Positions 1 through 12,076 of a stretch of DNA of 12,726 nt are shown here, one piece after another. Origin of the DNA: Candidatus Fermentibacterales bacterium (lineage in GTDB: Bacteria > Fermentibacterota > Fermentibacteria > Fermentibacterales > JAFGKQ01); NCBI GenBank assembly GCA_016928495.1, contig JAFGKQ010000029.1:1-12726 (forward strand), read 5' to 3'. Within the stretch, counting starts at the first letter, position 1. Each line of letters begins with the position of its first letter. The position numbers were made by a program, and so were the translations under genes. The notes below the pieces were generated by a model. That model was not told the origin of the DNA. It made no database searches and saw only the letters and a list, made by a program, of their open reading frames with translations.

Positions 1-1537
1 GCAGAACCGCGATGGCCCTGCCGAGTCCGACATCCCATCTCCGGACCCTGAACCAGCCCCGCGACTTCCAGTGCCCCACGAGCGACGGCACGAGAGTCAG
101 GCAGACCAGGTAGGATGCGGCAAGCGTGGATGCCACGGTGAAGGCGAAGGGCCTGTAGTAGAGCCTGAGCGTGCCCTGGCTCGCAAGGAGGGGCACGAAG
201 GCGACCATGGTAGTGAGGATGCCGCCGAGGACGGGCAGCGCAACCTCCCTCGCGCCGATCTCGGCAGCCTTCAGGGGCTCCAGCCCCTGCCGCCTCCTGT
301 AGCCTATGGACTCCATCACGACCACGGCTCCGTCCACCAGGAGGCCGAACGCGATGGCCAGGGCGCTGAGGGTCAGCACGTTGATGCTGTAGCCGACCAG
401 GTAGACGGCCGTCACTGCCAGGGCAGCGGAGAACAGGATCGAGCTGAGTATCAGAGGGGTCGACTGGAACCGCGGGTTGAGCAGCAGAAGCACCAGGATG
501 ATCCCGCCAAGGCTGAGCAGGGCCCTCCAGGAGAGATCACCAAGGTCCTCCCTGATGCTCTCGGTGCCGTCCTCGGTGATCTCGAGCCCTACCCCCTCCG
601 GCAGCTCGCCCTGGAGCTCGCGTACCTCGGACCTGACGCTGCCGGCGACCCTTACGGCATTGCTGCCGGGAGACCGGTCCACCTGAAGGCTGATCTGGTC
701 CAGCCCGTTGTAGCGGAAGATGCTCTGCCTGTTCTCGTTGAACTCCTGGACTATGCGATTGGAGATGTCGCCCAGCGTGACGAAGCGGGAGCCGCGGACG
801 GCCACCACCATCCTGGAGAAGTCCCGGATGGTCGAGGGCAGGGTGCTCACCCTGATCACGGTCTCGAGGCCCGAGGAATCCACTGCGACCCCGACGTTGC
901 GGTCTATCAGGCCGGACCTTATCCCCTCGGCGACCTCCGAGAGCGTCAGGTCGAGTGCCCGCATCGTCTCCAGGTCTACGTCGACCACGATCTGCTCTTC
1001 CCCGAGTCCCTCTATGAAGACCGAGCTGACACCCTCCAGTCTCTCGAGCCTCGGCTTGATCACGTCCTCGGCCAGCGCGACCAGAACGGTCTTCTCCGCC
1101 CCCGTAAGTGCGTAGATGAGGAAGCCTTCGCTCTCCATCTCCCTGGGGACTGACTGGCTCACCGTCGAGGGCAGGACGCCGTCGGGAAGGTCCTCGCGGA
1201 TGAGGGAGATTCGCTCCGTGAGCTCCATTGCCGCGACATCCATGTCGGTGCCCTTGGCGAACGAAACGGTCACCATGCTCTGGGAGGCCTCGCTCCTCGA
1301 GGAGATCTCCTCGACTCCCTCGACCTGTCTGGCTACCTCCTCGATGGGCCTGGTGAGCTGTTCCGTGACGGCCTCGGGCGCGGCCCCCTGCCAGATGGTC
1401 ACGACGTTGAGCGAGGGCAGCGTCGTCTCGGGGGTGCCCTCTATGGGTATCCTGGTGAAGGAAACCGCTGCCAGGAGCAGCAGGGCCGCGAAGACCACGG
1501 ACGTGCCTCTCGGACGGTTGAGGACTGTCCTAATCAT
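1..1537 (-). CDS. RND-family efflux permease, N-terminal part (runs off the left edge)
   Basis: This is the first 512 codons of a second inner-membrane RND (resistance-nodulation-division) transporter, a proton-driven exporter. It starts at ATG 1535-1537. Visible in order are an N-terminal TM helix (about residues 12-28), the porter-domain opening with the family-typical WQGAAPEAVTEQ near 49-60, a long periplasmic porter region, then TM helices from about residue 340. TM4 carries LLVDGAVVVME with Asp402; the AcrB-type second Asp of the proton relay is Gly403 here. A single relay Asp also occurs in CusA-like and other RND branches, so this does not imply inactivity. The start lies inside the end of the upstream RND gene (8-nt overlap, ATGATTAG), and only a distant GGGAG precedes it, so translation is probably coupled. 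The second porter half and TM7-12 lie outside the window. Substrate cannot be told. Confidence 0.93.
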   Translation of the reverse strand, partial: MIRTVLNRPRGTSVVFAALLLLAAVSFTRIPIEGTPETTLPSLNVVTIWQGAAPEAVTEQLTRPIEEVARQVEGVEEISSRSEASQSMVTVSFAKGTDMDVAAMELTERISLIREDLPDGVLPSTVSQSVPREMESEGFLIYALTGAEKTVLVALAEDVIKPRLERLEGVSSVFIEGLGEEQIVVDVDLETMRALDLTLSEVAEGIRSGLIDRNVGVAVDSSGLETVIRVSTLPSTIRDFSRMVVAVRGSRFVTLGDISNRIVQEFNENRQSIFRYNGLDQISLQVDRSPGSNAVRVAGSVRSEVRELQGELPEGVGLEITEDGTESIREDLGDLSWRALLSLGGIILVLLLLNPRFQSTPLILSSILFSAALAVTAVYLVGYSINVLTLSALAIAFGLLVDGAVVVMESIGYRRRQGLEPLKAAEIGAREVALPVLGGILTTMVAFVPLLASQGTLRLYYRPFAFTVASTLAASYLVCLTLVPSLVGHWKSRGWFRVRRWDVGLGRAIAVL

Positions 1538-4500
1538 GGGCGCGGCGAAGGGCTCCCTTTCCTCCGGCCACCAGCAGGTAGAGCATGGGAACGAGGACCA
1601 GCGTGAGCAGGGTAGCAACGCTTATGCCCCCGATGATCGCTATGGCCAGAGGCTGCCTGAGGCTGGCTCCGGCGCCTATGCCCAGGGCCATCGGGAGAAG
1701 CCCGAGCACGGTGGTGACGGTGGTCATGATGACGGGCCTGAACCTGTCCCTTGCGGCCCTCAGCACCGCATCCACCGGAGCGGCTCCCTCCCGCCTCACC
1801 TGGGAGATGCGCTCGACCAGCAGTATGCCGTCGTTGACGACTATGCCCGACAGCACCACCAGCCCGATGCCGGAGAGGGCGTTCCAGCTCTGGCCGGCCA
1901 GCCAGAGGGCGGCCACGACCCCGATTATGCCCATCGGTACCGTGAACATTATCACGAAGGGCTCCCGGAAGGACTCGAACTGGGCAGCCAGAAGGACGTA
2001 GACCAGCCCGACGGCAAGCAGGGCGGCAAACAGCAGCCCCTCGGTCGTCCTCTCCATCTCCTCCATCTCCGGCCCCATCCTCAGGGAAACGGGCACCCCG
2101 GCGAGAAGCGACTCGCCCAGAGCCTCGACCCCCCTGGCGAGCCCTGCCAGGTTGCTGCCGGTGGCCTCGATGCTCAGAGCGACCGCCCTGTTGCCCTGGT
2201 AGTGCTCGATGAAGCCCGGCGTCTGCCTCCTGTCCCACTCGACAAGCCTGGAGACCGGCACCAGCCCGCCCGACGTGGGCAAACAGCGATTCAGCAGGCT
2301 CTCGAAGGCAATGCCCTCACCGGCGCCGGTGAGCAGAAGCACGTCCACCCTCTCGTCCTGCCGGTAGTAGGTGGTGGCCGGCATGCCGCGGGCCATGCTC
2401 TCCACGAAGTCCCCGATCTCCCCGGCACTGACGCCGAGAAGCTCGAGGAGCTGCTGATCCACTCTCAGCACTATCTCCGGCGTGCCCTCGAGATAGTCCG
2501 GGTCGGCCTCCCTGACGGCGGGAAGAGCCTCCGCTCCCGCGGCCAGGGCCTCGGCGGCCAGCCGGTCCACCTCGAGGAGCTCGCCCTCGACGAAGACGGT
2601 GAGGTCGCTGCCTCCGCCCAGTATCTCGCCGAGAAGGGTCTCCCTCTCTTCGACGAGCAGATCGAAATCGTAGAAGGACTGCCATGCGTCGCGCAGAAGG
2701 GGCGCCGCTCGGGCCGCCTCCTCCGTGCCCGAATAGGAAGCGGTCAGCACGGCATCCACGCCCTCCTCCGCCCTTACGCCCAGCCTTGCCCAGACACTGC
2801 CCGCACCCGACTCCAGACAGAGGTCGACGGCCGTCTGCGAGAGCCCGACGAGCTGCTGCATCGAGGTCCCGGGCGGAGCGGAGAAACGCAGGTCAAGCTG
2901 ATCGACAGGCACGGATGGCAGGAGCTGCATCGGCAGCAGGGTCGCGCCGACGAGCGCGACACCCAGCACGCAGACCGCGACGAGCAGCACCAGTCCCGGA
3001 CGGCGCATCAGCAGCCGTAGCCACTCGGAATAGGAGTGCTTCAGCCTGCCCGTCGTGTCCTCGAAGCCCTTCTTCCTGCCTACTCGGGCTGCAAGTGAAG
3101 GGATCAGCGTGACCGCGACGAGAAGGCTCGCAAGCAGGGCGAAGCCCACCGCGAGGGCCTGGTCCCTGAAGAGCTGACTGGCAATGCCCTCGAGGTACAC
3201 GACGGGGAAGAACACGATGATCGTGGTGAGCGTGCTGGCGGTGATCGCCTTTCCCACCTCGCCCGTGCCGGACCTGGCAGCCTCGAGCCTGCCCAGGCCT
3301 TCCTCCCGCCTGCGGTAGATCGCCTCGAGGACCACGACCGCGTTGTCGACCAGCAGGCCGGTCCCCAGGGCGAGCCCGCCCAGGGACATCACGTTTATCG
3401 TGACGCCGCACAGATGGAGCAGGAAGAGAGCCAGGGCTATGCTGAGCGGAAGAGACAGGCCCAGGATAAGGGGGCTCTTCCAGTCCCTCAGGAAGAAGAA
3501 GAGCACACCGAAGGCCAGCAGCGCTCCTATTATCAGCGCCTCCACCACGCCGCCCACCGAGTCGGTTATGAACTCGGCATCGCTCTGTATGACCTCGAGG
3601 GTGATCTCGGGATACTCCGCCCGGAGCTGGTCGAGTATCTCCCCGACGTCTCCGGCTACCTCGACCGTGTTGGACTCGGCCATCTTCCTGACGAGGAGGA
3701 TCAGGCACCTGTCCCCGTTGAAGCTGGCCCACTCGGTGGGGGGCTTCTCCTCGAGACTGACCTCGGCTACGTCGCGCAGCAGCACCGGGCTGCTTCCCCT
3801 GAAGCCTATGACGGTGCTCTCGACATCGCTGAGGTCCCTGAACTCGCCGTCGAGGGAGAGGAAGAACTCCTTCTCGCCGTCGCGAACCAGGCCGCCGGGC
3901 AGGGTGAGGTTGGCGCCGGTGAGGGCCATGGAGATGATCTGCGGGTCGAGGTTGAGCTCCTCCACGGCGCCATCCCTCAGACGGACGTAGACCCCGGGGT
4001 CGGCCCCGCCCTCGAGCTCACAGGCGGCAACGCCGTCGATCTGCTCGATCCTGGTGGTGATGACCCTCCTCGCGAAGTCGCTGGTCTCGGTCCAGTCGCC
4101 CTCACGGGTGAGAAGGATCTCCATGAAGGGCCTTCGGGAGGGATCGTACTCGACCAGAGTCGGCCTGCCGGCATCGTCGGGCAGCCCCCAGCTCGCGATG
4201 TCGAGCTTCTCGCGGACCTCCAGCCGGGTGAAGTCCATCCTGGTTCCCCAGTCGAACTCGAGGGTAATGCGGCTCCTGTCGCCATAGGAGCGCGAGGTGT
4301 AGCCGCGGAGGCCCCTGACCCCGGCGAGCGACTCCTCGAGTGGATCCGTCACCAGACGCTCGACCTCGTAGGGGCTTGCGGAGGGGAAGGTGGTCTCGAT
4401 CGTCAGCCTGGGGTACTCGATGCTGGGAAGCAGGTCCACCGGCATCTTGAGAACCGCTATGGCACCCAGGACCGCCGCGACCACACTGAGAACGGTCAGG

Positions 4501-4538
4501 GCTACGGGGCGGGAAATGGCCGAGTCTGTGATCTTCAT
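1530..4538 (-). CDS. RND-family efflux permease, complete (HAE1/AcrB-like)
   Basis: This is a complete 1002-aa inner-membrane RND transporter, slightly shorter than AcrB-type pumps (about 1030-1050 aa). It has TM1 at about residues 12-31, a first porter half (about 40-330), TM2-6 (about 333-483), TM7 (about 513-535), a second porter half (about 540-830) and TM8-12 (about 833-990). The family motif FPSASPYEVE is at 51-60. TM4 has GLLVDNAVVVLE with Asp398-Asn399, where AcrB has Asp-Asp. TM10 has GIVVNDGILLVE (898-909), with Asn902 in the place of the AcrB lysine. Such substitutions are common in the wider HAE1 family. ATG 4538 is preceded by GGGAG three bases upstream. It is the first gene of a two-RND unit. 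No membrane-fusion or TolC-like gene flanks it inside the window, so its partners must lie past the left edge or elsewhere. Substrate unknown. Confidence 0.95.
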   Translation of the reverse strand: MKITDSAISRPVALTVLSVVAAVLGAIAVLKMPVDLLPSIEYPRLTIETTFPSASPYEVERLVTDPLEESLAGVRGLRGYTSRSYGDRSRITLEFDWGTRMDFTRLEVREKLDIASWGLPDDAGRPTLVEYDPSRRPFMEILLTREGDWTETSDFARRVITTRIEQIDGVAACELEGGADPGVYVRLRDGAVEELNLDPQIISMALTGANLTLPGGLVRDGEKEFFLSLDGEFRDLSDVESTVIGFRGSSPVLLRDVAEVSLEEKPPTEWASFNGDRCLILLVRKMAESNTVEVAGDVGEILDQLRAEYPEITLEVIQSDAEFITDSVGGVVEALIIGALLAFGVLFFFLRDWKSPLILGLSLPLSIALALFLLHLCGVTINVMSLGGLALGTGLLVDNAVVVLEAIYRRREEGLGRLEAARSGTGEVGKAITASTLTTIIVFFPVVYLEGIASQLFRDQALAVGFALLASLLVAVTLIPSLAARVGRKKGFEDTTGRLKHSYSEWLRLLMRRPGLVLLVAVCVLGVALVGATLLPMQLLPSVPVDQLDLRFSAPPGTSMQQLVGLSQTAVDLCLESGAGSVWARLGVRAEEGVDAVLTASYSGTEEAARAAPLLRDAWQSFYDFDLLVEERETLLGEILGGGSDLTVFVEGELLEVDRLAAEALAAGAEALPAVREADPDYLEGTPEIVLRVDQQLLELLGVSAGEIGDFVESMARGMPATTYYRQDERVDVLLLTGAGEGIAFESLLNRCLPTSGGLVPVSRLVEWDRRQTPGFIEHYQGNRAVALSIEATGSNLAGLARGVEALGESLLAGVPVSLRMGPEMEEMERTTEGLLFAALLAVGLVYVLLAAQFESFREPFVIMFTVPMGIIGVVAALWLAGQSWNALSGIGLVVLSGIVVNDGILLVERISQVRREGAAPVDAVLRAARDRFRPVIMTTVTTVLGLLPMALGIGAGASLRQPLAIAIIGGISVATLLTLVLVPMLYLLVAGGKGALRRAHD

Positions 4539-8653: not shown

Positions 8654-9643
8654 CTAGTCCTCCAGCACGAAGACGTCCATGGTGCTGCCGACGCAGACCA
8701 GGGCCCTGTGGCCGTCGGGGGACACCCTGATGTCCTCGGGGACATCGATGCCCTCGATGGTGGCCTCGACGCTGCCCTCGTCCCTCGAGACGACGACTAT
8801 GCCCTGGCCCGGACACCCCGCGTAGACGTACTTGCCGTCGGGAGTCACCTCGACGCTGGTCGCCGTTGCCGGCAGAGGGACGGTCTCGTAGTGCTGGCCG
8901 GTTCCGAGGTCGATCAGCCAGATCTCGCTGCCGCAGCCAACCGCCGCGTAGACGGCATCCGGCCCGGTCTCCATGTCGTGGACTGTGCCGGATGTCCCGC
9001 ACTCCGTCACGGTGGTGAAGCCCGACGTCTCGAGCTTCTTCACGGTCGCGTCGCTCTGGTCCGCCACGAACACGGCCGAGCCATCGGGACTCAGGGCTGC
9101 CGCCGTCGCGCTGCCCACATCGGTGGAGAAGCTCCCCGAGACCGTCCAGCTGAGCGTGTTGACCACGGTGACGGTGCCGTCCTCGTGCACGACCCAGGCC
9201 ACGCCCCCCTGCGGCCTTGGCAGCAGGAACCGGGCAGGGGAGGTCTGGCCCAGGGGGATCGGGTCGTGGCCGTAGTAGGTATCGTTGCTGACGTAGTGGA
9301 GCATCGCGTCGGAGACCGCCATGGCGTAGCCGCCGTCCGCCGTTGAACCGACGTCGTTGAGAGGGTAGCCCAGGCTCAGCGTGTCGAGCAGGAAGCCCAT
9401 GTCGTGGTCCACGAAGCACAGGAAGCTCCCGGCGCAGAAGACACCGTCCTGCGAGGAGCCGATGAAGCAGCAGGACACCGGGGCACCCATCGAGGAGCAG
9501 TCTATGTCCTGGAGCGAGAAAACCGGGAACCCGACGGAGAAGTCGGGGCCCGTGGGCCCGCAGGAGGCGAGCGCGAGGAGCGCCGCTGCCAGGGGAAGCA
9601 CAACTGCCGGGATCTCCGGGTGTCTCGCGGTTCTGTGTCTCAC
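8654..9643 (-). CDS. Beta-propeller lipoprotein (YVTN/WD-like repeats)
   Basis: This is a 329-aa predicted lipoprotein. I start it at GTG 9641-9643 rather than further upstream. This start gives a signal peptide (basic MRHRTAR, hydrophobic 12-27) with lipobox LASC and lipidated Cys28. It also makes a GTGA overlap with the DUF72 stop and has GGAGAG about 8 nt upstream. The mature part has repeats of about 40 residues typical of propeller blades: LSPDGSAVFVAD (184-195), GPDAVYAAVG (227-236), VTPDGKYVYAG (266-276) and VSPDGHRALV (307-316). Such proteins are usually scaffolds or ligand-binding proteins on the periplasmic or outer face; no enzymatic site is seen. Besides the lipid cysteine there are nine others (49, 58, 59, 70, 76, 215, 237, 277, 317), which could form disulfides in the periplasm. 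Partner and ligand are unknown. Confidence 0.88.
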   Translation of the reverse strand: MRHRTARHPEIPAVVLPLAAALLALASCGPTGPDFSVGFPVFSLQDIDCSSMGAPVSCCFIGSSQDGVFCAGSFLCFVDHDMGFLLDTLSLGYPLNDVGSTADGGYAMAVSDAMLHYVSNDTYYGHDPIPLGQTSPARFLLPRPQGGVAWVVHEDGTVTVVNTLSWTVSGSFSTDVGSATAAALSPDGSAVFVADQSDATVKKLETSGFTTVTECGTSGTVHDMETGPDAVYAAVGCGSEIWLIDLGTGQHYETVPLPATATSVEVTPDGKYVYAGCPGQGIVVVSRDEGSVEATIEGIDVPEDIRVSPDGHRALVCVGSTMDVFVLED

Positions 9644-10482
9644 TTGTCGCTCTCCGTTTCCAGAAGCAGGTTTCTCATGAGGCCCGCGCTCTTCACGGCC
9701 TGCCCCGCATGGCAGTTGTTGAAGAAGAGGAAGACCGCCGGGAAGCTCGCTGCGATGCGAGCGAGCTCCGGCAGCCAGGCCGAGAGCTCCTCCCTGGTGT
9801 AGTCCCAGTCGTAGCGCTCGGCGCCCCCCTTCCACCAGGTGCGGGCGTTCCTGCCGTGGAACCTGACATAGCCGGGAGCCTCACCCTCGACTAGTGCCTC
9901 CCTCGGCGGCAGGTTCCCGATGGCCGGCAGATCGACCGAGACCAGGGACACCCCCAGCCCGGCCAGGCGCGGCCTGAGGGAGGGGACGTACCAGTCGCGG
10001 TGCCTGAGCTCCACCGACACGGGGGCAGAGCCCCTCGTCCTCTCCGCGATGACCTCCAGGTAACCCAGGCTGTCATCGCAGGGCCTGAACGAATAGGGGA
10101 ACTGGGCCAGCAGCCCCTCGAGCTTGCCGCTCTCCCGGAGCGGCCCCAGCATGGCGCCGTAGTCCGCCCACTGGGAGTCGGTGGCGTCCCTGGAGTGGGT
10201 CATGCTCCCATGGAGCTTGACGAAGAACCGGAAGCTATCCGGGGTCTTCGCTGCCATGTGCTCCATGACCCTGGGATGCAGTATCCTGTAGTAGGTGGAG
10301 TTGACCTCGACCGTGTCGAAGCTGGTCGAGTAGTAGTCGAGCATGCCGCCCTTCGGGGTGCCCGGGGGGTAGAAGGGGCCTACCCAGTCGTCGAAGCTGT
10401 AGCCGGACGTGCCTACGCGGAACCGCGAGCCGTTCCACAGGAGCCCGTCCGGACCATCACCCTGTTGCTCGGTCATATCCAC
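9640..10482 (-). CDS. DUF72 (YecE-family) protein
   Basis: This 280-aa protein shows the full series of DUF72 signatures: GTSGYSF (24-30), EVNSTYY (59-65), FVKLHGSMTH (87-96), QFPYSF (127-132), VELRHRDW (157-164), YVRFHGRN (205-212), YDWDYTREEL (224-233) and FNNCHAGQAV (254-263). Family members form a TIM-barrel-like fold and E. coli YecE is one; their biochemical role is not established. The conserved polar clusters look like an active site, and no signal peptide is present, so it should act in the cytoplasm. The start may be GTG 10482 or ATG 10476, two codons later. The gene begins 18 nt after dinB ends and overlaps the lipoprotein by 4 nt. This places it in the middle of a tight unit with a translesion polymerase, which suggests but does not prove a role in damage response. 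Confidence 0.95.
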   Translation of the reverse strand: MDMTEQQGDGPDGLLWNGSRFRVGTSGYSFDDWVGPFYPPGTPKGGMLDYYSTSFDTVEVNSTYYRILHPRVMEHMAAKTPDSFRFFVKLHGSMTHSRDATDSQWADYGAMLGPLRESGKLEGLLAQFPYSFRPCDDSLGYLEVIAERTRGSAPVSVELRHRDWYVPSLRPRLAGLGVSLVSVDLPAIGNLPPREALVEGEAPGYVRFHGRNARTWWKGGAERYDWDYTREELSAWLPELARIAASFPAVFLFFNNCHAGQAVKSAGLMRNLLLETESDK

Positions 10483-10500: not shown

Positions 10501-11754
10501 TCAGACCGTCCTGCCGGTCCTGCGACTGCCGCCACGGTCGAGAAGATAGGGAGCGTGCGGCCCCGGCGGAAGGCTGTCGGCTCCCTCCCGCCCTTCACGC
10601 CGCTCCATGTAGGCGGCCAGGCACCTCCCGCTGAGCACGGCCCTCTCGCCGAACTTCTTTCTGATGGCGTCCGAGATGCGGTTGAGCCTCCCGGTGGGCT
10701 CCTCGAAGAGCTCGAGCTGGCCGTAAGAGGCCGGAACCAGCCCCCCGAGGGAGACCCCGATGAGCCTTATCGGGAACCCGAGCGCTTCCTCCGCCAGCTC
10801 TCGCGCTACCCTGAACAGCAACTGGTCCTGATCCGTGGGCTTCGATACCTGCCTTGCCCTGGTGTGGCTCTTCAGATTGGGGAGCCTGTACCTGAGGGTC
10901 ACGATACTGCCCCTGTAGCCTTCGTCCCTCGACCGGCCCGCCACCTTGCGGGCCATGTTAGCCAGCACGGGCAGGTACTCGCCCGGGGTGGCGACATCCC
11001 TGTGGAAGGTGTGCTCGTGGCTTATGGACTTCGGGGGCTCGGTCTCGTCCCAGGGGACTAGCGGCGTATGATCCACGCCCCTGCAGAGGAAGAAGAGCAC
11101 CTCCCCGTGGACGCCGAGCATCGCCCTGAGCCGCCGCAGGTCGAGCGAGCGCAGGTCGCCGATGGTCCTCATCCCGAAACGCAGGAGAGCCGCGGTCGTC
11201 TCGGGGCCGACCCCCCATATCCTGTCGACCGGGAGCTCCGTTATGTCTTCAGGCTCCAGCCTGCATATGCCTCTGGGCTTCGCCTGCTTCGAGGCCATCT
11301 TGGCCAGGAGCTTGTTCCCGCCTATGCCGATGCTGGCCCAGAGACCGGTCTCGCGGAGTATGGCCTTCTGGAGGCCGACCGCCACCATGGAGGCGCCGGC
11401 CTTTCCGTCCGGAGGCCCGAGCTCGATGAAAACCTCGTCTATGCTGACGGGCTCTATCAGCGGAGTGAAACCCATAAGCACTTTCAGTATCCTGCGGGTG
11501 TAGGTGCCGTACTTGCCCGTGCTGCCTTCCACGATCACGGCATCTGGAACCAGTCTGAGCGCGGCGGCCAGCGGCATGCCGGATCTCACGCCCAGACGCC
11601 TGGCTATGTAGTTGCAGGATGACACCACGGTGCGCAGCGAGGGGTTGCCGGATACTACCACCGGCCTGTCGCGAAGCCCGGGCCTGCCGAGTATCTCGAC
11701 GGACGCGAAGTAGGCGTCCATATCCACATGGAGTATGGTCCGGGCCTCTCCCAT
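10501..11754 (-). CDS. dinB: DNA polymerase IV (Y-family translesion polymerase)
   Basis: This 417-aa Y-family polymerase copies past damaged bases with low fidelity. Palm motif HVDMDAYFASVE (9-20) supplies catalytic Asp11 and the steric-gate aromatic Phe16; SIDEVFIEL (104-112) supplies Asp106 and Glu107. The YIARRLGVRSGMP segment (49-61), the GIGGNKLLAKMASKQAKP segment (143-160) and the helix-hairpin-helix thumb IWGVGPETTAALLRFG (179-194) are intact. The little-finger domain follows, then QLELF (346-350), a good match to the beta-clamp binding motif. It is internal rather than at the extreme C-terminus, followed by a conserved RLNRISDAIRKKFGE segment and a basic tail (about 384-417). All catalytic residues are present. 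ATG 11754 follows the stop of the small upstream gene by 15 nt with GGGAG nearby, so it is cotranscribed. Damage induction is likely from its promoter (inference). Confidence 0.97.
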   Translation of the reverse strand: MGEARTILHVDMDAYFASVEILGRPGLRDRPVVVSGNPSLRTVVSSCNYIARRLGVRSGMPLAAALRLVPDAVIVEGSTGKYGTYTRRILKVLMGFTPLIEPVSIDEVFIELGPPDGKAGASMVAVGLQKAILRETGLWASIGIGGNKLLAKMASKQAKPRGICRLEPEDITELPVDRIWGVGPETTAALLRFGMRTIGDLRSLDLRRLRAMLGVHGEVLFFLCRGVDHTPLVPWDETEPPKSISHEHTFHRDVATPGEYLPVLANMARKVAGRSRDEGYRGSIVTLRYRLPNLKSHTRARQVSKPTDQDQLLFRVARELAEEALGFPIRLIGVSLGGLVPASYGQLELFEEPTGRLNRISDAIRKKFGERAVLSGRCLAAYMERREGREGADSLPPGPHAPYLLDRGGSRRTGRTV

Positions 11755-11769: not shown

Positions 11770-12024
11770 TCAGGCCCCGTCCCTGTACTCGAAGTCCAGC
11801 ACCCACCTCAGGGCGTACGAGTCGAAGTGCAGCTCGTAGACGTCGTCGTCAGTCGTCCTGAGGAGGAAGTGATAGTGCTTGTAGGCACCGACCCTGCTCT
11901 CCCAGGAAGACGAGACCCTGTCCACCCTGTGGACCTTCGCCCGCCATCTGAAACGGCAGGGTATGACCTCGCCGTCCCTGAAGCAGGTTATCATCTCGAC
12001 GGGCTCTCTGAACTCCACGACCAT
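11770..12024 (-). CDS. Small DUF6504-like protein upstream of dinB
   Basis: This 84-aa protein has a pattern resembling the DUF6504 family, as I recall it: an N-terminal EPVEM stretch, FRWRAKVHRVDRV in the middle, a Trp (WESR), then a strand-rich YELHFDSYALRWVLDFEYRDG end. Small proteins of that family are often encoded beside Y-family polymerase genes such as dinB or imuB; their function is unknown. The fold looks like a small all-beta domain; no signal peptide or TM helix is present. ATG 12022-12024 is preceded by GGAGG about 11 nt upstream. It is the first gene after the operator-bearing promoter. The family call is by memory of the motif pattern and gene context; the reading frame itself is secure. 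Confidence 0.75.
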   Translation of the reverse strand: MVVEFREPVEMITCFRDGEVIPCRFRWRAKVHRVDRVSSSWESRVGAYKHYHFLLRTTDDDVYELHFDSYALRWVLDFEYRDGA

Positions 12025-12047: not shown

Positions 12048-12076
12048 AGAATCGTAAACGTTTGTTTACTTGTCAA
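12048..12076 (-). promoter_or_regulatory. Promoter of the DUF6504-dinB-DUF72-lipoprotein cluster
   Basis: On the minus strand a perfect TTGACA (12071-12076) is followed after 17 nt by GATTCT (12048-12053). The latter is a weak -10, but it keeps the key A at position 2 and T at position 6. Transcription would start near 12041, about 17 nt before the ATG. A strong -35 with a weak -10 and an operator in the spacer is a usual design for a repressed, inducible promoter. Confidence 0.6.
12054..12069. promoter_or_regulatory. Operator-like inverted repeat in the dinB cluster promoter (candidate LexA box)
   Basis: GTAAAC (12054-12059) and GTTTAC (12064-12069) form a perfect 6+6 inverted repeat with a 4-nt centre, occupying 16 of the 17 spacer bases between the -35 and -10. 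The half-site spacing resembles the GAAC-N4-GTTC LexA box of Gram-positive bacteria, with one base changed in each half. The overlapping AAACGTTT core is also LacI/PurR-like. The target gene, a translesion polymerase, makes LexA the first guess; no regulator is encoded in the window. Confidence 0.5.

Follow-up and report, generated by a model that had tools for sequence, protein, structure and literature searches.

A predicted LexA operator within the promoter of a translesion polymerase operon of Candidatus Fermentibacterota

A perfect 16-bp palindrome lies within the dinB-cluster promoter of a Candidatus Fermentibacterota bacterium. In related genomes, the same 16-base site precedes lexA as well as further genes of the DNA-damage response, which makes it very probable that the palindrome serves this organism as its LexA operator (SOS box). 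This prediction rests on the comparison of sequences. Together, the motif, the set of genes that carry it, and a relative that naturally lacks lexA make the SOS response predictable from sequence in an uncultured FCB-group phylum.

The palindrome and the promoter of the dinB operon

The stretch of DNA analyzed here (the window; 12,726 nt) is one whole contig (C91) of a 2.3 Mb MAG that is 81% complete. The minus strand of window positions 12048–12076 reads TTGACA-A-GTAAACAAACGTTTAC-GATTCT (in full, from 12076 to 12048, TTGACAAGTAAACAAACGTTTACGATTCT). The palindrome, at 12069–12054, has 0 mismatches to GTAAAC-N4-GTTTAC and is separated by one base from the TTGACA, so that the palindrome and this base fill a -35 to -10 spacer of exactly 17 nt. 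The -10 element, GATTCT, matches the -10 consensus at 3 of 6 positions. The original prediction of a perfect inverted repeat that occupies the spacer between a TTGACA and a weak -10 is therefore an accurate description of the site. A generic sigma-70 scan did not list the promoter because its -10 falls under the threshold of the tool; orthologous dinB promoters have a better -10, TATTyT. The promoter is located ~30 nt ahead of the start codon of an 84-aa, DUF6504-like ORF, and the features of the locus are as follows:

12071–12076, minus strand: -35 element TTGACA of the DUF6504-dinB operon promoter (from the sequence; TTGAC is at the same place in 29/29 orthologous promoters)
12054–12069, minus strand: predicted LexA box (SOS operator) GTAAACAAACGTTTAC, a perfect 16-bp palindrome with an N4 center (0 mismatches; the only perfect site of the genome; retained throughout the order at dinB and lexA)
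12048–12053, minus strand: -10 element GATTCT, weak; TATTyT in orthologues (from the sequence and the column counts of 29 orthologous promoters)
11770–12024, minus strand: DUF6504-like ORF, 84 aa, with which the operon begins (E = 9e-4 to Pfam DUF6504, a hit that does not reach the gathering score)
10501–11754, minus strand: dinB, DNA polymerase IV, a Y-family translesion polymerase (Pfam IMS, E = 5e-41, and IMS_C, 2e-24; NCBIfam DNA polymerase IV models)
9640–10482, minus strand: DUF72 gene (Pfam DUF72, 1.5e-53)

The translesion polymerase operon that had been proposed downstream of the repeat is thus real, with dinB flanked by the DUF6504-like ORF and the DUF72 gene. In the ORF list, 15 nt separate the DUF6504-like ORF from dinB and 18 nt separate dinB from the DUF72 gene, which is probably co-transcribed with dinB. 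Most of the named Fermentibacteria loci likewise have a small ORF (82–87 aa) ahead of dinB. Elsewhere in the window (2–4538, minus strand), two long overlapping frames resemble genes for RND-type efflux transporters.

At ≤2 mismatches, the palindrome is the sole site in the window, where 0.02 are expected from dinucleotide shuffles. It is likewise the one perfect site in the 2.3 Mb genome, against 0.02 expected by base composition (window GC, 66%). One further site occurs in the genome at 1 mismatch, and the reversed control pattern gives none; at 3 mismatches, the genome has no excess over the control (71 vs. 81). Both sites at ≤1 mismatch precede polymerases of the translesion type, and the motif is accordingly uncommon at unrelated promoters.

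Conservation of the box in the order and at lexA

Our sample of the order comprised 42 genomes, namely the host and 41 further species in families f2 and f3; the other relatives retrieved belonged to different phyla or were placed no further than “same domain.” The host is itself a member of Candidatus Fermentibacterota. Named public genomes with the box before a DUF6504-like/dinB pair are those of Candidatus Fermentibacteria, Aegiribacteria, and candidate division Hyd24-12, and NCBI taxonomy assigns Fermentibacter to Candidatus Fermentibacterota, within the FCB group. There were 29 perfect sites in 26 of the 42 genomes, compared to two for the reversed pattern, and 288 sites at ≤1 mismatch, compared to 108, although these counts are drawn from related genomes, which are not independent trials. 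Eighteen genomes of other phyla contained no perfect site and showed no enrichment at ≤1 mismatch (62 vs. 99 for the control, summed by hand).

We retrieved 30 dinB loci, of which 29 had enough upstream DNA to be read. All 29, from three families, carry the box ~300 nt (290–442) before dinB and upstream of the small ORF, as was anticipated if the motif were kept at orthologous promoters. The layout is fixed: TTGACN, one base, the 16-bp box and, in most cases, TATTyT. The boxes of families f1 and f2 match GTAAAC-N4-GTTTAC at 10–12 of the 12 positions in 24/24 loci, with CTAAAC, GTGAAC, GTTCAC, and GTATAC among their half-site variants; in shuffled 500-nt upstream regions, a 10/12 match arose in 1.9% of trials and an 11/12 match in 0.1%. 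Those of f3 are GCAAAC-N4-GTTTGT, ACAAACGTATGTTTAT or ACAAACGGATGTTTGT. The GTAAAC form suggested earlier as the motif of the lineage consequently holds for f1 and f2, but not for f3, where the form is RCAAAC-N4-GTTTGY. Across dinB promoters, AAC and GT are fixed, and the third T of the right half is present in 22/29. An apparent exception to AAC in G004 was discarded as a tie artifact of the first-choice site; the G004 dinB site, ACAAACGGATGTTTGT, fits. Throughout the order, A at half-site position 4 and the outer GT…AC prevail in most promoters, with f3 having a flank of its own.

The host lexA gene (contig C41; L003:1483–2157, minus strand) is preceded by TTGACA and then by GTAAACAAATGTGCAG, which runs into the ribosome-binding site, AGGAGG. 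The left half of this site is perfect, whilst the right half is degenerate (3/6). An AAC-N4-GT site was found at the same position, between TTGAC and the ribosome-binding site, in 33 of the 34 genomes read, being GTAAACATATGTATAG in genus g2 and GTAAACATATGTTTCC or close variants in g8. The lexA site of G002 is weaker, and a second lexA copy in G006 has no site at that position. The host LexA scores 206.8 bits against TIGR00498, aligns along almost its entire length with LexA proteins of solved structure, has LexA repressors as its closest solved structures, and retains the cleavage site (VAAG) together with the Ser and Lys motifs of the active site; it is predicted to be of the canonical, self-cleaving type. 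In relative G001 (genus g2, 98% complete), lexA and dinB are both missing, and the genome contains no site at ≤1 mismatch. It appears to have lost the two genes and every box naturally, which is the pattern expected from loss of the whole system.

The original prediction looked for the motif at both lexA and recA of the same genome. It was present, in an imperfect form, at lexA, but neither recA, which sits in a cinA-thpR-recA run, nor its upstream operon genes have a box (best match, 8/12), so that the prediction does not hold for recA of this species. Elsewhere in the order, recA is boxed in 12 g8 genomes, by GGAAACATATGTTTAC or similar sequences some 120 nt before the gene, and in two g7 genomes, by GAGAACANATGTTYAC, whereas recA of g2, g5, g9, and the f3 genome G006 has none. 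Because regulation of recA varies within the order, the lack of a box at the host recA does not outweigh the evidence from lexA. The uvr genes had also been suggested as targets, and we rejected uvrA: its best match across 30 genomes was 9/12, and with the box absent in all of them it serves as a clean negative control.

Function of the box and its relation to known LexA motifs

The box spans the 17-nt spacer of the dinB promoters, and so LexA binding could block RNA polymerase. A LexA dimer on the box would cover the -35 to -10 region and keep RNA polymerase off the DUF6504-dinB(-DUF72) operon. If the host follows the LexA pathway, DNA damage would lead to RecA filaments on single-stranded DNA and these to self-cleavage of LexA, upon which the translesion polymerase would be made.

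Palindromes in promoter spacers are typical of many repressors, and the host recA is without a site. Both points could be accommodated if the box were the operator of some other dimeric repressor (of the TetR, GntR, or LacI type) that governs the dinB operon without LexA. We consider this highly improbable, given that the same box is found at lexA itself, as in autoregulation, at dnaE2-like and gyrI-like genes, and at recA in g7 and g8; that it is missing together with lexA and dinB in G001; and that it has its AAC-N4-GTT core in common with published LexA operators. A palindrome arising by chance, or acting at the level of RNA, would be in keeping with one short site noticed by eye in one MAG, but the likelihood of either is negligible. 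Set against the 0.02 perfect sites expected genome-wide, the conservation of both sequence and position at 29 dinB loci in three families argues decisively against chance, and as the box is upstream of the inferred transcription start, it cannot be an attenuator of the dinB transcript. The identification of the repeat as the LexA box of the lineage is hence supported by the predicted sites at lexA, dinB, and other damage genes.

LexA motifs diverge between phyla, with 17 distinct ones reported by 2021 (PMC8565304). We found no SOS motif for Fermentibacterota in the literature searched, and one may have been published elsewhere. The B. subtilis operator is GAAC-N4-GTTC (as cited in PMC4234289). 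The Fermentibacterota box has in common with it a dyad with an N4 center, an AAC-N4-GTT core, and a location over promoters of lexA and damage genes. It differs in that half-site position 4 is mostly A (AAAC/GTTT) rather than G/C and that the outer bases are GT…AC (f1/f2) or RC…GY (f3); furthermore, uvrA is outside the regulon here and recA is inside it only in some genera. The window site, with AAAC/GTTT in both halves, departs from strict GAAC/GTTC half sites, yet falls within the Bacillus class when this is defined by the AAC-N4-GTT core in a dyad alone. The C. difficile operators, such as those of lexA, AGGAACAAATGTTTGC, and recA, GAGAACAAATGTTTGT, keep GAAC in at least one half among those listed (PMC4234289). 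They resemble the Fermentibacterota box in core and AT-rich center, and one C. difficile half is already GTTT (PMC4234289), but AAAC occupies both halves here and the outer bases differ. The Streptomyces venezuelae SOS box, tCGAAC-N4-GNNCGa, the targets of which include lexA, dnaE2, and dinP (PMC9380542), is likewise a 16-bp imperfect palindrome with an AAC-N4-G core, and differs in its outer bases and at position 4. The motifs of Bdellovibrio (TTAC-N3-GTAA), Geobacter (GGTT-N10-AACC), and Bacteroidetes (CTAA-N5-TTAG) (PMC8565304) play the same role with a different spacing and sequence, and the Fermentibacterota motif belongs to none of them. Its assignment to an unfamiliar type was therefore overstated: as judged from these sequences, it is a variant of the known Gram-positive AAC-N4-GTT (GAAC-N4-GTTC) class and not a foreign type.

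It could even be argued that GTAAAC-N4-GTTTAC, albeit a LexA site, has drifted only slightly from the SOS box of Gram-positive bacteria, leaving no separate phylum motif to name, and we give this view somewhat less than an even chance. It concerns the name, and is compatible with the LexA-operator reading on function. The core common to Bacillus and Clostridium operators (e.g., lexA of C. difficile; PMC4234289) speaks for it, as do the GTGAAC…GTTCAC sites at dinB in G018 and G003, and the GTAAACATTTGTTTAC carried by a Candidatus Geothermincola lexA locus (L110), because of which the form of the motif is not exclusive to Fermentibacterota. Against it are the prevalence of position-4 A and outer GT…AC in most promoters of the order, the separate flank of f3, and the GAAC half retained by the listed C. 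difficile operators. Under either name, closeness to the Gram-positive core is a data point on the drift of LexA specificity. As a separate observation, contigs of Patescibacteria, Gracilibacteria, and Peregrinibacteria (L092, L096, L099, L104, and L113) contain TTGAC-NN-GTGAAC-N4-GTTYAC-TATT, which in L092 is at a lexA-like gene.

Other genes preceded by the box

The host genome has only about four convincing sites. As had been proposed for dnaE2, its 1-mismatch site, GTGAACTTTTGTTTAC, is ahead of a dnaE2-like polymerase that is cut by the contig end. The g2 orthologues of this gene are also boxed, and the full-length orthologue gives hits to models of DNA polymerase III alpha and of error-prone polymerases but none to a PHP domain; the LexA-boxed dnaE2-like polymerase at L205:130–3006 has no recognizable PHP domain in its first 250 residues. 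A 2-mismatch site, TTGACTT-GTAAACATATGTGTAG, precedes a DEDD-exonuclease/GIY-YIG gene related to UvrC and Cho, which is followed by an SbcD-like gene. Among the host 2-mismatch sites, only C232 looks genuine; C20 and C21 were rejected as lying inside reading frames, C315 as having no promoter-like context, and C236 as being at a gene boundary without a damage gene. Further boxes lie in g2 upstream of one GyrI/SbmC-like, one radical SAM, and one glyoxalase-like gene, and of a DUF3276 gene that diverges from another radical SAM gene. Beyond dinB and lexA, the boxed genes (dnaE2-like, exonuclease/UvrC-like, GyrI-like, and, in g7 and g8, recA) fit an SOS regulon.

The motif also marks uncharacterized small genes as probable damage-response effectors. 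We tentatively propose, while rating it at rather under even odds, a lineage-specific Fermentibacterota SOS regulon with a LexA motif of the GTAAAC class, in which control of recA has been gained or lost between genera and effectors are conserved by position, notably small proteins linked to mutS (with a LexA box that overlaps a -35) and perhaps IS91-like transposases.

In f2 (g2, g7, g8, and g9) and f3, a box that is often a perfect GTAAACAGGTGTTTAC is found 3′ of mutS, before short ORFs of ~80–130 aa (L036, L045–L057, L179, L165, L286, and L284); in g8 it overlaps a -35 (TTTACA-N17-TATAGT). No box is located downstream of the host mutS. The short ORFs, which are candidate, uncharacterized SOS effectors, have no Pfam or NCBIfam match, and a Foldseek comparison with structure models of the mutS-linked proteins turned up nothing below E = 0.001. 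A second structural aligner returned a common split-barrel arrangement (Z up to 8.8 over 84 residues, rmsd about 3), which is uninformative on function.

Two further observations were made in g2 genomes. A family of ~185-aa proteins (YVNRYR…RQEGY…), with no Pfam or NCBIfam match, is encoded after TTGACAT and a GTATACATATGTTTAC box (L173, L180, L189, and L199). In several genomes, GTAAACATCCGTATAC-like boxes beside TTGAC are located upstream of IS91-like transposases or their remnants (L184, L190, L194, and L196), and transposition of these elements in g2 may possibly be under SOS control.
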